DNA of 64,000 nt from Psychrilyobacter atlanticus DSM 19335 (GTDB taxonomy: Bacteria > Fusobacteriota > Fusobacteriia > Fusobacteriales > Fusobacteriaceae), in contig NZ_KE384547.1 of the NCBI RefSeq assembly GCF_000426625.1, positions 542,986-606,985 on the forward strand, written 5' to 3'. Shown here piece by piece: positions 22,938-28,100 of the stretch; positions within the stretch are counted from its first letter, which is position 1; the number at the start of each line of letters is the position of its first letter. The translations under genes and the position numbers were made by a program. The notes beneath the pieces were generated by a model that saw only the letters and a list, made by a program, of their open reading frames with translations, was not told the DNA's origin and did not search any database.

Positions 22938-24851
22938 TTAGTTATCAAATTTTACTTTAGCTTCCTCTACGATCATAGAAATAAAGTCGTTTAATTTCAT
23001 AGTTTCTTGATCTTTTGAACCAAATCTTCTTACATTTACTTCATTAGCTTCAGCTTCAGATTTTCCTAAGATTAATTGAACAGGAATCTTGAATTTACCA
23101 TTAGCTTCTCTGATCTTATATCCTATTTTTTCTGCTCTGTCATCTAACTCACATCTGATCCCAACTTTAGCTAATTCAGCCATAACTTCCTTAGCATATG
23201 GAACTACTTCATCATTTAGAGTAAGTAATTTTATTTGTGTAGGAGCTAACCATAATGGGAATGCACCTGCAAAATGTTCGATTAAGATTCCGATAAATCT
23301 TTCAACTGAACCATAAACTACTCTATGGACCATAACTGGTCTATGCTTTTCTCCATCTTCTCCAATATAGTTCATATCAAATCTTTCTGGAAGATTAAAG
23401 TCAAGTTGGATAGTTCCACATTGCCATTCTCTACCTAAACAATCTTTGATTTTGAAGTCTAACTTAGGACCATAAAATGCTCCATCTCCTGGATTTAATT
23501 TATAATCTAATCCAATTTTTTTCATAGCTCCTTCTAGTGCTGATTCAGCTTTATCCCATATATCGTCGGATCCAATAGCCTTTTCAGGTTTAGTAGATAG
23601 TTCGATATGGTATTCGAATCCAAATAATTTATTGTAGAATTTGTCGATCAAGTTGATAACTCCTATGATCTCTTCTTCAATTTGGTCTGGAGTCATAAAG
23701 ATATGAGCGTCGTCCTGTGTGAAGTTTCTAACTCTGAATAATCCGTGTAATGCACCAGAGAATTCATGTCTATGTACGATACCTAATTCACCCATTCTAA
23801 TAGGGAAATCCTTATAAGAATGTAATCCGTGTTTGTATACTAAAACACTTCCAGGACAGTTCATAGGTTTTATAGCAAATTCATGTTTATCTATCTCAGA
23901 AAGATACATGTTTTCTTTATAGTTAAACCAGTGGCCAGAAGTTTCCCATAACTCTTTATTAAGCATGATAGGAGTTCTAACTTCTTGATATCCGGCATTT
24001 CTATGCTCTGATTTCCAAAGGTCTTCTAATACATTTCTTAATTCCATTCCTTTTGGTAACCAGAATGGGAATCCTGGACCATATTCACTCATGAAGAATA
24101 GGTCTAACTCTTTACCTAATTTTCTATGATCTCTTTTTTCAGCTTCTTCTAAGAATTTTAGGTGTAGTTTTAATGCTTTATCTGAATCAAAAGCTATACC
24201 ATAGATTCTTTGTAACATCTTGTTAGAAGAATCTCCTCTCCAGTAAGCTCCAGCTACTGACATAAGTTTAAATGATTTTAAATATCTAGTAGAAGGTACA
24301 TGAGGTCCAAGACATAGGTCTGTAAATTCACCTTGAGAATATAGAGTAAGAGCTCCTACTGCAATATCAGTAATGATCTCTACTTTGTAGTCCTCTCCTG
24401 CTTCTTTAAACTTTGCTATTGCATCTTCTTTAGAGATATTTTCTTTAGTTATCTTAATGTCTTCCTTAACTAGTTTTTTCATCTCAGCTTCAATTTTAGC
24501 TAAGTCTTCCTCTGTAAATTGTTCTTTAGGGTCGAAGTCGTAGTAGAATCCGTATTCTATAGACGGCCCTATAGCTACTTTAGTTTCAGGGAAAAGTCTG
24601 ATTACAGCTTGAGCCATAAGATGTGCAGTGGAATGTCTAATTATCTCTATTCCCTCTTCACTGTTAGGCATGATAAGTTCTACAGCAGCGTCTTCTGAAG
24701 CCATTGTAGTCATATCTACTAATTTTCCATCGACCTTTGCTGCTACAGCATTTTTAGCTAGTGAGTTACTTATACTTTTGGCAATTTGAAACATGTTTAC
24801 TGGAGCATCAAATTCTTTGATATCCCCGCTTGGTAAAGTTATCTTAATCAT
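22938..24851 (-). CDS. thrS: Threonyl-tRNA synthetase
   Basis: This 637-residue enzyme charges tRNA-Thr. It has the N-terminal TGS domain (about 1-60), the editing domain with HSTAHLMAQA, the class II core with MNCPGSVLVYKHG (a zinc-ligand Cys) and motif 3, and the C-terminal anticodon-binding domain (LLTLNDE to the end). ATG at 24851 has GAGGAGTGATG upstream; a longer reading from 24911 runs through the attenuator hairpin and is rejected. The 5' leader carries a Thr-rich leader peptide, an alternative hairpin and a terminator (see next entries), so synthesis likely rises when charged tRNA-Thr is short. Confidence 0.97.
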   Translation of the reverse strand: MIKITLPSGDIKEFDAPVNMFQIAKSISNSLAKNAVAAKVDGKLVDMTTMASEDAAVELIMPNSEEGIEIIRHSTAHLMAQAVIRLFPETKVAIGPSIEYGFYYDFDPKEQFTEEDLAKIEAEMKKLVKEDIKITKENISKEDAIAKFKEAGEDYKVEIITDIAVGALTLYSQGEFTDLCLGPHVPSTRYLKSFKLMSVAGAYWRGDSSNKMLQRIYGIAFDSDKALKLHLKFLEEAEKRDHRKLGKELDLFFMSEYGPGFPFWLPKGMELRNVLEDLWKSEHRNAGYQEVRTPIMLNKELWETSGHWFNYKENMYLSEIDKHEFAIKPMNCPGSVLVYKHGLHSYKDFPIRMGELGIVHRHEFSGALHGLFRVRNFTQDDAHIFMTPDQIEEEIIGVINLIDKFYNKLFGFEYHIELSTKPEKAIGSDDIWDKAESALEGAMKKIGLDYKLNPGDGAFYGPKLDFKIKDCLGREWQCGTIQLDFNLPERFDMNYIGEDGEKHRPVMVHRVVYGSVERFIGILIEHFAGAFPLWLAPTQIKLLTLNDEVVPYAKEVMAELAKVGIRCELDDRAEKIGYKIREANGKFKIPVQLILGKSEAEANEVNVRRFGSKDQETMKLNDFISMIVEEAKVKFDN

Positions 24852-24888
24852 CTTTACATCACTCCTCAATTTTTTTATATAATTTAAT

Positions 24889-24933
24889 TTTTTTCTAAAA
24901 AAAGAACCCACCTAGATCATATCTAGATGGGTT
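24889..24933 (-). terminator. Attenuator terminator in the thrS leader
   Basis: On the minus strand the stem AACCCATCTAGAT / ATCTAGGTGGGTT (13 pairs with one G-U, loop ATG) is followed by CTTTTTTT. It lies 38 bases upstream of the thrS start and downstream of the leader peptide, so it would stop transcription before thrS unless its left arm is trapped by the segment at 24949-24958. Confidence 0.88.
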
Positions 24934-25008
24934 AAATATTTTTTCATTCCAGACAGATACAAAACTTATATTTTTACAAAGGAAATAAGATCTGTATATT
25001 TACAAATC

Positions 25009-25047
25009 CTAAATAAAAGTATCCGTTGTGGTGGTAAGTAATCTCAT
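25009..25047 (-). CDS. Threonine-rich leader peptide of thrS (12 codons)
   Basis: The minus-strand frame ATG AGA TTA CTT ACC ACC ACA ACG GAT ACT TTT ATT TAG encodes MRLLTTTTDTFI, with five Thr in 12 codons, four in a row. AGGAG lies 8 bases before the ATG. It is the first open frame after the consensus promoter at 25086-25114. The last Thr codons (25019-25026) can pair with 24953-24960, and that segment can instead pair with the left arm of the terminator. This is the layout of amino-acid leader-peptide attenuators such as those of the enteric thr operon. I cannot show that it is translated. Confidence 0.82.
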   Translation of the reverse strand: MRLLTTTTDTFI

Positions 25048-25085
25048 AGTCTAAGCTCCTACTGAAATATTATTATTATCTGGAA

Positions 25086-25114
25086 ATTCTAACATATTTT
25101 GTTCAATATGTCAA
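25086..25114 (-). promoter_or_regulatory. Consensus promoter of the thrS leader
   Basis: On the minus strand TTGACA (25114-25109) and TAGAAT (25091-25086) are 17 bases apart. It lies just after the stop codon of the lptD-like gene, giving a leader transcript of about 230 bases before thrS. Confidence 0.88.
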
Positions 25115-25122
25115 AAGGTGTA

Positions 25123-28100
25123 TTATTTCTTTGGTTCATCTACTTCTACTCCACTACCAAGCCATAAGTTAGGAGTCATACTTCCATCTTTATCCTTGTA
25201 TCCGATTCCGAAGAGAGGATTTGTTGGGAATGTAAGGAGAGTAAATTGAACAGCTAAACGATCATCATATGATCCTGTATTTCTGTCGTAATCTTTGGTG
25301 TATCCCACAGACCATTCATAGTATCCCATTTCTTTCCCAAGATAAACACCATATTCATCTTCATCGTTAAGTTCAGTTTTATAGGATAATTTTATGTTCC
25401 ATCCCTGGCTGGGTTTTCCTATACCGGCTCGCATTCTGAATTCGTGTTCCTGTTTGGTAAGGTTTCTATCGTAGTTGTTGTTAAAATTAGCTTCTTCACG
25501 ATATGTATATCCCAGACCAAATCTTTTATAGGAACCGTAAACATCTCCCTCTAATTCCTTTAAACTTCCGAAGAAGTCATTACTTTGGCTGTAGGCTTCA
25601 CGGTGTACCTTTGCCATAAGGGAAAGGGTGAAGTATTTTTTATATTCTGGACGATTCATCTCCTCAAACATTATAGAATTAAGGCTAAAGTCCAATTGGT
25701 TATCATTTCTCTCATTTAAAATTTGTTTTACCCGACTTATCTCGGCAGGAGTGATCTCTAATTTTTCTTTGTTATACTCAGCTGCAGCATAACTTCTAAG
25801 CTCCTCATCGGTAAACCTTTTATCCCTGTATTCATATCTGAATGAAACCTGATCTGAAGAAAAATTCTTTAAATCTTTTGACGGCCCATACTTATAGATA
25901 CCATAGGTAGCACGATAGAAGTGTTCCACCTCTCCTCCATTTAGATAACTGGCACCGATGATGTCGTTTTTAACATTAAAAGTTTCTGAGTTATTGTCTA
26001 TTCTTTCATCGGAGGCATGGGTATAGGTAAGGTTGTACACATCCAGGTCATCTTTGATCTCAATTCCATATGTACTTTCCGATACCTTTTCATTTGCGTC
26101 ATAATTATAATTTGGATCGGTACTAGGAATATTTTGAGATTCCATTAGGGTATAATCAATTTTTTCATGACCATAATAGAACCTATAATTTTCATTTATA
26201 TAGTAACTACCACCAAATTTATTGCTGGTAAGGTCATTATATTCATCATCAAAGGCATAGCCACTAGGCGTAAGTTCTCCACGGGTGTATCTTTTGTCCA
26301 AATCATAGTATAAATTTAACTTTTTCTCATCATTGACTAAAAAGTCTATGTTGTTGGTAAAGAGGTCTCCTCTTTTTACACCTCTGTCAAAGCCGTCATT
26401 ACTCTGTTTATAACCAGCAGTATAGATAGTTGTAGTATTTCCAAGATCTAATGTAACCTTATCTTTGAATTCATTTACGCTATCCTTATTTTTCAACCTA
26501 ACTTGTCCATTATATGTAGAGTCACCATTACGGCTTCCATTATCGTAGGAGTAAAGCTGACCAAAATAATGGAATTCGTTGTTTAATTTGAGGTCTATAT
26601 CTCTAAAATGGTTGTTGGTATTATCTAAGATGGTAACTTTATGATTGAAATCCATCTGATGCCGTAGAGATGAGTCTCCCCCGCTGTTATCACCAGTATA
26701 GGAATCATACCCTTTGGTATAACTATCATATCTTAGATTATACTTCAATCCCACTTCACCTAGGTAACCTAAGTTAAGTCTTTTGTCTTCCAGCTCGATT
26801 TGAGCAAAATCCGATTCATTGATATAGATATTATAGGCATCATTTTCTGCTACCTCATTATAATTATATATTCCTTCTCTGTCCCAAAACTCGTCTTTGG
26901 TCTTTCCGAAGGTAAGTTCTAACCTATATTGTTCATAGAAAAATTCAGTAGCAACCTTATCTTCACTACTTTTACTGTAGATAATATTCTCTTCCTTGTT
27001 ATATTGCTGATCTCTTTTGTTGAAATCAGGATTATTTGAACCACTTGCTTCTCTGAAGGGATCATTGTCTAAATTTAATTCCTTTTCAGACCTGAGACTG
27101 TCAAACTTCACCTTATAGGTTGCTCCGCTGCTGCCGAGATCGTATTCTCCAAGGTGTAATTTGATCTTATCGCTGTCATCTTTATCGTATTCATATACAG
27201 ACCAAGGAACATAGTTTATACTTCCACCCTGAAGTTTTGTGATGTCCTCTAAGTCAGGACTACGCTCCCAGGATCTGAGTTTTCTCAGTTTATCCCCGCT
27301 TTCATGGTCGTAGGCAAAATCTATCTTAGCTTCCTTTAGGTTGAATGCAAATCCAAAATTTTCACGTCTAGACTGATTATCGTCTTCCTTAGATGTAGAA
27401 CCAGGATCCAAATCTTTTAGGTAGTCATAGTAGGCAGAAATCATATAATCGTCGTTATCTTTAGTAAAACCAAGATCAGTATATAGTTTATGGTCTAGCT
27501 GAGAACCAAAAGAGGCGTCATCCATTCGGTCATCAACTAATTGTCTGTATGCATCTTCTCCTCCAGCTAACATCTTAACTTTAGAGTGAAGGGTAATATC
27601 ATTTCTTTCACCTATATTTTTAAATTCAGAATCCAAGGTGATAAAATTAATGGATTCCCCATCGTTTCTTTCTTTGTCATCATAGTAACCATCTCTTTCT
27701 AAATCGTCTCTATAATCTTCTAAAGCACTTATCTTATTTACAGTTGTACTTTGAAGTCCTAATTTTAAATAACCGTTATCATTTTTATATTCATGATTGG
27801 CAGCTAGATCCCACCTGTCATCGACAGAACTGTCTTTTTTTACTACCAATAGGTCATCAGCAGTAACTAGACCTTTTCCATAATCTCCTAGATCATACCA
27901 GTTTTCAAATCTTCCAACTAGTAACCCTAATTGATCAGCGAACTTAGGAGCTATACCACCTTTAAAGTATTTACTGTTATTATCTCCGTAGTTTACACCA
28001 CTGGATATGTGAAATCCATAATCGGTTTTATCTCCCCAGACAGGGAAAAGAGGTACTTTGGAACCTTGTCTTATATTGACTGCATACCAAGGGAACCAGC

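Follow-up and report, generated by a model that had tools for sequence, protein, structure and literature searches.

The leader of thrS in the window, by which we mean the whole 64,000-nucleotide stretch of Psychrilyobacter atlanticus DNA that was analyzed, very probably attenuates transcription by a ribosome-mediated mechanism, with a short open reading frame (ORF) containing a run of Thr codons serving to sense charged tRNA-Thr. It is also a likely member of a modular family whose leaders, for different amino acids, have one RNA core in common, made of segments A, B, and C and a terminator D:E. The parts of these leaders, their conservation, their alternative pairings, and the fit between leader codons and downstream genes are direct observations. 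A preliminary description had already taken the region before thrS for a Thr leader-peptide transcription attenuator, and this remains the best reading of it. Textbooks present leader-peptide attenuation as a collection of leaders that each belong to one operon and are not related to one another; in the present case, a common core seems to be used by His, Tyr, Trp, Thr/Ile, Pro, and aromatic amino acid genes through exchange of the codon run. A shared core opens a direct route to asking how attenuators spread and shift specificity, and it provides a testable answer to the role of an orphan riboswitch candidate from the literature that has over 900 members.

The thrS leader and its counterparts in related genomes

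All parts of the leader lie on the minus strand, in the order 1218-amino acid ORF, promoter-like site, leader ORF, hairpin, conserved segment, terminator, and thrS, the regulated gene (22938–24851), which encodes threonine–tRNA ligase (NCBIfam TIGR00418, 734 bits against a cut-off of 384). The 1218-amino acid ORF gave no NCBIfam match at 1e-5 and no Pfam match at 0.01. The promoter-like site (25086–25114) consists of TTGACA at 25114–25109, a 17-nt spacer, and TAGAAT ending at 25086, with TG before the −10 box. It lies where the preliminary description placed a promoter and agrees with 11 of 12 consensus positions, but it is a consensus match only, with no mapped transcription start, and because comparable matches are frequent in this AT-rich region (33 observed versus 27.7 expected in shuffles), the promoter on its own is no proof. 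The Shine-Dalgarno (SD) sequence AGGAG (25056–25060) precedes a leader ORF of 12 codons and a stop, MRLLTTTTDTFI (25009–25047; ATG 25047–25045, stop 25011–25009), likewise as first described, in which codons 5 to 8 form the run ACC ACC ACA ACG (25024–25035) and a fifth Thr codon, ACT, stands at 25020–25018. Segment P, ACGGATAC (25019–25026), is predicted by folding to be able to pair with segment C when free of the ribosome. Arm A (25001–25011) begins at the leader stop codon and pairs with arm B (24986–24996) in an 11-bp hairpin (25011–24986) with an AATA loop, a pairing supported by family covariation. B has as its partner either A or the first half of C, AGTTTTGTATCTGTCTGGA (24948–24966), and C in turn either B or arm D. 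Arm D (24921–24933) is the 5′ arm of the terminator and the target of C, and arm E (24905–24917) is the 3′ arm. The terminator stem (24933–24905) has the 13 pairs claimed for it, with a 3-nt loop, and is followed by a C nucleotide and a T7 tract (24897–24903), as expected of an intrinsic terminator. The window leader folds better than 200 of 200 shuffles (z −3.5).

A stable hairpin in a leader before thrS also recalls E. coli, in which ThrRS binds a tRNA-like hairpin in its own leader. Autogenous control of this kind, for which E. coli ThrRS is a known case in the part of the source available to us (PMC2965389), is nonetheless highly improbable here. The AATA loop of A:B in the window is no anticodon loop, the same core stands before genes that do not encode synthetases (putP, asd, and DAHP synthase), and ThrRS binding would leave the Thr run and the terminator unexplained.

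The gene thrS is present in all 61 genomes of the family (Fusobacteriaceae) and in 97 of 98 genomes of the phylum; 98 thrS loci were taken and 94 upstream regions scanned, three loci being without a tblastn start and one ending at a contig edge, and a part missing from the thrS locus at a contig end was taken from L063. The comparison with relatives that the preliminary description had proposed did find Thr-rich frames before thrS there: in 13 of the 61 Fusobacteriaceae genomes, from five genera and with differing peptides, the gene comes after an SD-preceded leader ORF in which a stretch of 8 residues contains at least 4 Thr. No such leader was found in the 33 scanned genomes outside the family, and by the same scan the leader is absent from most Fusobacteriaceae genomes (46 of 61). 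The window's genus, g1, has MRLLTTTTDTFI in 7 of 8 genomes, two of them with one substitution; the corresponding leaders are MNSYMIKSTTTTSTTS in g14 (1 of 1 genome), MLGYFSSTTKTTI in g10 (1 of 1), MLYGVFFDTTTTLTNK in g9 (3 of 3, one a variant), where the Thr codons vary at the third position and Thr itself is kept, and MFKITTTTTNTFYRFGLVR in g12 (1 of 3). A sixth genus, g8, carries MNKFINIQITYTAK, with two Thr codons only (2 of 2). Behind all 15 thrS leaders stands a terminator-like hairpin, with −11.6 to −22.4 kcal/mol, plus a T run. As a control, SD-preceded ORFs in leaderless genomes hold 0 to 3 Thr in 8 residues (94 thrS upstream regions scanned), the one exception, L030, being an out-of-frame ORF with 4 Thr in 8 inside the upstream gene. 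Among the loci listed for the remaining genera, thrS usually follows the upstream gene at a short distance, with no leader in between. The sole genome of the window's genus that lacks the thrS leader (G057, locus L008) has another gene directly upstream of thrS, suggesting that the attenuator was lost or that the contig is misassembled. One of the g9 genomes, G041, was identified as Ilyobacter polytropus DSM 2926, its second replicon sharing 2800 identical bases with NC_014633.1.

In Firmicutes, thrS is usually controlled by a T-box. A T-box riboswitch that reads uncharged tRNA-Thr directly can be discounted almost entirely at the present locus: the check for a T-box (RF00230) that had been proposed along with the attenuator returned none at the window's thrS, at either the gathering or a relaxed threshold, and none at thrS in eight further-searched loci, even though T-box matches occur elsewhere in 14 of the 61 family genomes, G000 included (2 over the cut-off). 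In G000, the only T-box among the matches listed lies on another contig, upstream of asnS. The likeness between the two systems is that one RNA scaffold is re-targeted between amino acids, which the T-box achieves through one specifier codon; the difference is that the T-box binds uncharged tRNA itself, whereas the sensor of the thrS leader would be the ribosome on the leader peptide.

Alternative pairings and the position of the ribosome

In all six genera, the Thr run is followed by the A:B hairpin (in g12 partly within the leader frame) and then by segment C, which is able to pair with B or D. C is complementary to both B and D beyond what is found for shuffled linkers (Fisher p 3.5e-5 over six genera). 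Tested leader by leader against shuffled linkers, C:D is weak and mostly nonsignificant (p 0.009–0.35), and the convincing evidence for it comes from joint and family-wide tests only. The preliminary description had proposed C:D as an antiterminator, and the pairing is kept across the family: when arms were swapped between members, cognate pairs gave −12.4 and swapped pairs −9.4 kcal/mol (n = 35, one per gene and genus, p 5e-5). Cognate arms also paired better for A:B (−11.9 versus −8.7; n = 23, p 1e-4) and for B:C (−11.6 versus −8.6; n = 23, p 1e-4). These p values are optimistic because the sequences are related, and kinship beyond one member per gene and genus was ignored. A:B covaries across the family, with 89% of cells paired and 35 double-change cells versus 13 in shuffles on an alignment fitted to the A:B helix, and 18 double changes versus 6.5 on an unfitted alignment. 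For B:C, the first 18 sequences gave no excess of covariation over shuffles and 37 distinct rows gave a moderate one (78% paired, 22 double changes versus 11); covariation of B:C is weak by itself. A terminator hairpin of −12 kcal/mol or lower is present in 61 of 63 core members and in 0 of 158 shuffled tails; a looser rule met by all 63 members was also passed by 103 of the 158 shuffled tails, and the −12 kcal/mol cut was therefore used.

Folding was modeled in the state in which D has been made and E has not, with the cost of freeing D as the measure. Over the six genera, freeing D costs most with a ribosome on the Thr codons, in comparison both with no ribosome (Fisher p 1.3e-5) and with a ribosome at the stop codon (p 0.004); with other genus representatives, the same comparisons gave p 1.3e-4 and 0.05. 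The antiterminator was stronger with a ribosome in the cognate run than with one at the stop in 28 of 35 core members, and stronger than without a ribosome in 29 of 35. For the window's genus, folding gives no termination-favoring effect of a ribosome at the stop codon: in L001, the cost of freeing D is 7.1 with the ribosome at the stop versus 6.1 in the Thr run, whatever footprint edge is used, L005 and L007 behave like L001 in that the stop is not lower, and L004 is about equal. In this genus, the folding model would have the off state rest on untranslated Thr codons pairing with C, the pairing named in the preliminary description. Once the full-length RNA is folded to equilibrium, D:E prevails in almost every state of almost every leader, L040 being the exception, so the model needs kinetics.

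These results bear on the two-way scheme of P:C against C:D first put forward for this locus. The complementarity of ACGGATAC (25026–25019) to GTATCTGT (24960–24953) is present at exactly those positions, and pairing between the Thr codons and C is consistent with a default state without translation, as judged from the six-genus comparison of a Thr stall with no ribosome. The proposed 10-bp pairing of ATCTGTCTGG with CCATCTAGAT contains two central mismatches, and registers that use loop bases are equally good. The scheme captured part of the switch and missed the post-stop hairpin A:B, which emerges from the family comparison as a central element, and the alternative B:C. Taken alone as a full model, from a single genus, it leaves the conserved post-stop hairpin unexplained, and it was retained as a part.

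The order of events and the transcriptional response to threonine are inferred, in the absence of expression, 5′-end, or ribosome data. At low charged tRNA-Thr, the ribosome would stall on codons 5 to 8, covering P and leaving A free to form A:B. With A:B formed, C would be free to pair with D, no terminator would arise, and thrS would be transcribed. With ample Thr, a ribosome at the stop codon would cover A, B would take part of C, and D:E would form, a step that folding does not support in the window's genus. Without translation, P may pair with C and D:E may again form. The lack of a stop-codon switch in the folding of the window's genus leaves some room for a leader that acts on translation or RNA decay, or that is a fixed terminator for the upstream gene, with no ribosome-dependent termination, and an intergenic terminator may do no more than stop the transcript of the gene before it. 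We consider this very unlikely, since an SD-preceded Thr ORF stands before the terminator in all six genera, TTGACA boxes upstream of that ORF were seen by eye in five of the six (the tool scan covered the window only), and C and D coevolve.

One core before genes for several amino acids

The leaders of hisZ, tyrS, thrS, and most trpS genes have a core in common, in the order stop codon, GGGTTTGTATC (A), loop, GATACAAACCC (B), T-rich tail, GGGTTTGTATCTATGGTGG (C), and terminator. A covariance model built from 18 such leaders, thrS included (R1), was searched in nine genomes and gave 30 matches with E below 0.004, 16 of them training sequences and 14 new. The conserved core of the window (A, B, tail, and C; 24948–25014) matches R1 with 54 bits, thrS being part of its training. 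In all 14 new matches, an SD-preceded ORF comes to its end no more than 3 nt from the core and contains a run of codons plausible for the gene (in L356, two Pro codons only), and the first match without a leader appears at E 0.005. A model built from hisZ, tyrS, and trpS leaders only, with no thrS leader in training (R3), ranks the window leader first (24948–25015, 28.8 bits, E 8e-4; the next match has 13.6 bits). Over 61 thrS loci, true thrS leaders fill the top 11 places among the matches to R3 (E 5e-5 to 0.15); the leaders of g12 and g10 stand at chance level (E 0.5–0.7), and those of g8 are absent from the matches listed.

A core model from 38 members (R2), applied with E up to 0.02 per genome and strict filters, has matches in 61 of the 98 genomes of Fusobacteriota, and in 18 of the 29 genera; a few of these are expected to be chance matches. 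We inspected 99 matches outside the training set, a subset of all R2 matches. An automatic rule, requiring an SD-preceded ORF with its stop at most 4 nt from the core and at least three of one of His, Trp, Thr, Pro, or Tyr in eight residues, was met by 59 of the 99 (40 fail) versus 80 of 20,000 random positions; a slightly different version of the rule passed 50 of 99. One of the 59, L393 before trpS, passes by virtue of Tyr and has only two Trp codons. By eye, the leader codons are plausible for the gene in 74 of the 99 (16 of 19, 48 of 60, and 10 of 20 in three sets). These 74 include several with two fitting codons only (NPMVP before PutP; WW before trpS or a transporter), five whose stop lies 12–15 nt inside the core, two (L419 and L424) with no gene left on the stretch, and five before sodium-dependent transporters of unknown substrate, of which two were tested. 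Because leader codons name an amino acid, they provide hints on the substrates of such poorly annotated transporters. The other 25 failed by eye; four of them showed fitting codons on closer inspection (L403, L433, and, with Pro codons before PutP, L396 and L439), and the rest are chance matches, cut contigs, or unclear cases such as L409 and L412, which have Cys codons before ABC transporter genes.

The genes behind the core differ widely. The new R1 matches comprise His codons before an amino acid ABC binding protein (4) and before hisZ (3, one partly masked), Tyr codons before tyrS (1), two Pro codons before PutP (1), the Thr/Ile leader MFRLTITTTIIIM before aspartate-semialdehyde dehydrogenase (3), and the Trp-Tyr-Phe-Tyr run MASQNLTNWYFYYYFRN before DAHP synthase (2). 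PutP, asd, and DAHP synthase scored above their NCBIfam cut-offs, and HisZ was the best match, below its cut-off. The substrate of the binding protein is not resolved by NCBIfam, so that a His transporter is inferred from the leader; other downstream genes were assigned by sequence likeness to the tested ones, without individual tests. Upstream regions of other tRNA synthetase genes were scanned in six genomes, in which tyrS has a Tyr-run leader in 5 of 5 genomes where found (e.g., MKFNDNQTYYYYY in G000), hisZ has a His-run leader in 3 of 3, and cognate leaders also precede some valS and trpS genes and one leuS. For ileS, metG, pheS, serS, proS, hisS, aspS, lysS, and asnS, this six-genome scan showed no cognate leader of a comparable kind. 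In other genera, tyrS is preceded by at least 4 Tyr in 8 residues at only 3 of 30 loci (G024, G025, and G026, all g5).

Several leaders and core matches stand apart from this pattern or add to it. The valS genes of G041, G040, and G000 (L187, L185, and L189) have Val-rich leader ORFs (MPKNRVVKVVVKQTS, MIEFLAVVKVVKNNILFLK, and MKRVEVKVNHILIKLI) with terminator-like hairpins; these leaders are without the shared core by eye and are possibly a second, unrelated attenuator type. Also without the core by eye are the trpS of G000 (L222), with a Trp-run leader, VSKRFTWWWRNLSNNFNTVSSK, and a terminator, and the leuS of G053 (L201), with a Leu-run ORF before it. The T-box match upstream of asnS in G000 (L275, G000:C3:1020955-1021128) scores 73 bits, below the cut-off of 93, and this genome seems to combine T-box control with leader-peptide control among its tRNA synthetase genes. 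In genus g3, core matches precede a 347-amino acid dehydrogenase-like gene (L403, L422, L433, and L437); the leader frame FWFMYYF of L403 and L433, which those of L422 and L437 appear to resemble, is an aromatic cluster that may name the pathway. In family f4, a leader scaffold, MKRFREAM or MKRFRESM, carries the ends HHHR, CSHRC, and CMS at L407 (G081), L409 (G085), and L412 (G084) and precedes ABC transporter genes that differ between the loci, MKRFREAM-HHHR standing before an amino acid ABC binding protein and MKRFREAM-CMS before a MetN-like gene. This scaffold with differing ends may be a natural codon swap. In Ilyobacter polytropus, a sub-threshold match to the glycine-GGAnGA riboswitch (98.5 of 110 bits; L358:605-753) lies between the Thr/Ile leader and asd.

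Known attenuators and the trpB motif

Leader-peptide attenuators are known in proteobacteria for trp, his, thr, leu, and pheST, and the E. coli thr leader resembles the Thr/Ile leader found before asd in fusobacteria. The proteobacterial systems likewise combine a leader with a codon run, mutually exclusive helices, and an intrinsic terminator; they differ in that each operon has a separate Rfam leader family, whereas the fusobacterial core serves at least eight kinds of gene. An article by Lopatovskaya et al. (2010) is said to treat attenuation of aminoacyl-tRNA genes and may contain thrS predictions. In the literature searched, from which subscription papers, including that of Lopatovskaya et al. 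2010, were mostly out of scope, no thrS or tyrS leader attenuator was found for fusobacteria. Rfam Thr_leader (RF00506) and other leader families are listed in the accessible part of PMC3766115. The statement in the preliminary description that no such case was known for thrS has to be corrected, as a weak thrS leader, thrL, has been predicted in Streptomyces lividans TK24 and read as Thr-dependent (PMC8079986, available in part). It too is a leader ORF before thrS, but as far as that partial source goes it has two Thr in 18 residues and no clear terminator, belongs to another phylum, and has no shared core shown. Further leader-ORF attenuators of tRNA synthetase or DAHP synthase genes, each cited from a source available in part, are those of trpS and leuS in Streptomyces (PMC1262725) and uORFC-8-2 (cysS, Rhodobacterales) and uORFC-13-1 (aroF, Acholeplasma) (PMC8632094); they differ from the present family in serving one gene and clade each, with no exchange of codon runs on one core.

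No Rfam family, leader families included, matched at gathering in the window or in 11 loci, and Thr_leader RF00506 gave no match at gathering in the window and none at E up to 10 in 24850–25130. Relaxed Rfam searches at thrS returned scattered low matches plus the trpB motif (RF04312), which in the window overlaps B:C and the terminator (24896–24998; 33.6 bits, below the gathering threshold of 59; E 0.0035 in 281 bases). Searches of other loci also brought up RF04312, in 7 of 16 at E up to 1 and in 6 of 18 at E up to 0.1, and all core members tested fall below its cut-off, the best with 51.7 of 59 bits. According to the available part of its description (Narunsky et al. 2024, PMC11109978), the trpB motif (SRC-39-1) is classed as a strong candidate for a riboswitch; it counts over 900 members, found in Firmicutes and Fusobacteria and in most cases located ahead of an amino acid-type ABC transporter. 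The B:C hairpin is the counterpart of P1 of the motif, the terminator that of its second hairpin, and C that of the “anti-terminator in the right shoulder of P1” noted there (PMC11109978). Arm A and a cognate leader ORF are not mentioned for the motif in the portion of PMC11109978 available, nor is the motif itself mentioned in the available portions of PMC8632094, PMC8040213, and PMC6429828.

The trpB motif was published as a riboswitch candidate, whereas we propose a modular leader-peptide attenuator. If B:C and the terminator instead bound a metabolite, the small ORFs would be incidental, an explanation that gains something from the filing of the motif as a strong riboswitch candidate (PMC11109978, in part) and from the sub-threshold matches to RF04312 in the window and in other members. 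We nevertheless give it very little credence. The codon runs vary with the downstream gene on an unchanged RNA core, a single ligand could hardly report the status of His, Tyr, Thr, Pro, and Trp, and the core amounts to little beyond short helices, A being almost identical to C. A classic attenuator is not excluded by the authors of the motif themselves, in the part of their text available (PMC11109978). We think it likely that in Fusobacteria, and perhaps in the Firmicutes that carry the trpB motif, one attenuator core is a plug-in platform on which a swap of the codon run re-targets the amino acid and the ribosome acts as the sensor, with the trpB candidate representing its OFF state.

The RF04312 consensus had a single clear match in a collection of plasmids, at E 4e-5 in Fusobacterium vincentii. 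R2 matched this element on the opposite strand only, with 19.6 bits, and no trp gene lies behind it, the nearest same-strand ORFs of at least 90 amino acids starting at distances of about 0.3 and 1.8 kb. Just upstream of the element stands MKQILTTTMRYWQNWHR, an SD-preceded ORF that contains two Trp codons. The 2.1-Mb F. vincentii “plasmid” record that holds it, NZ_CP084075.1 (L449), is probably a chromosome.
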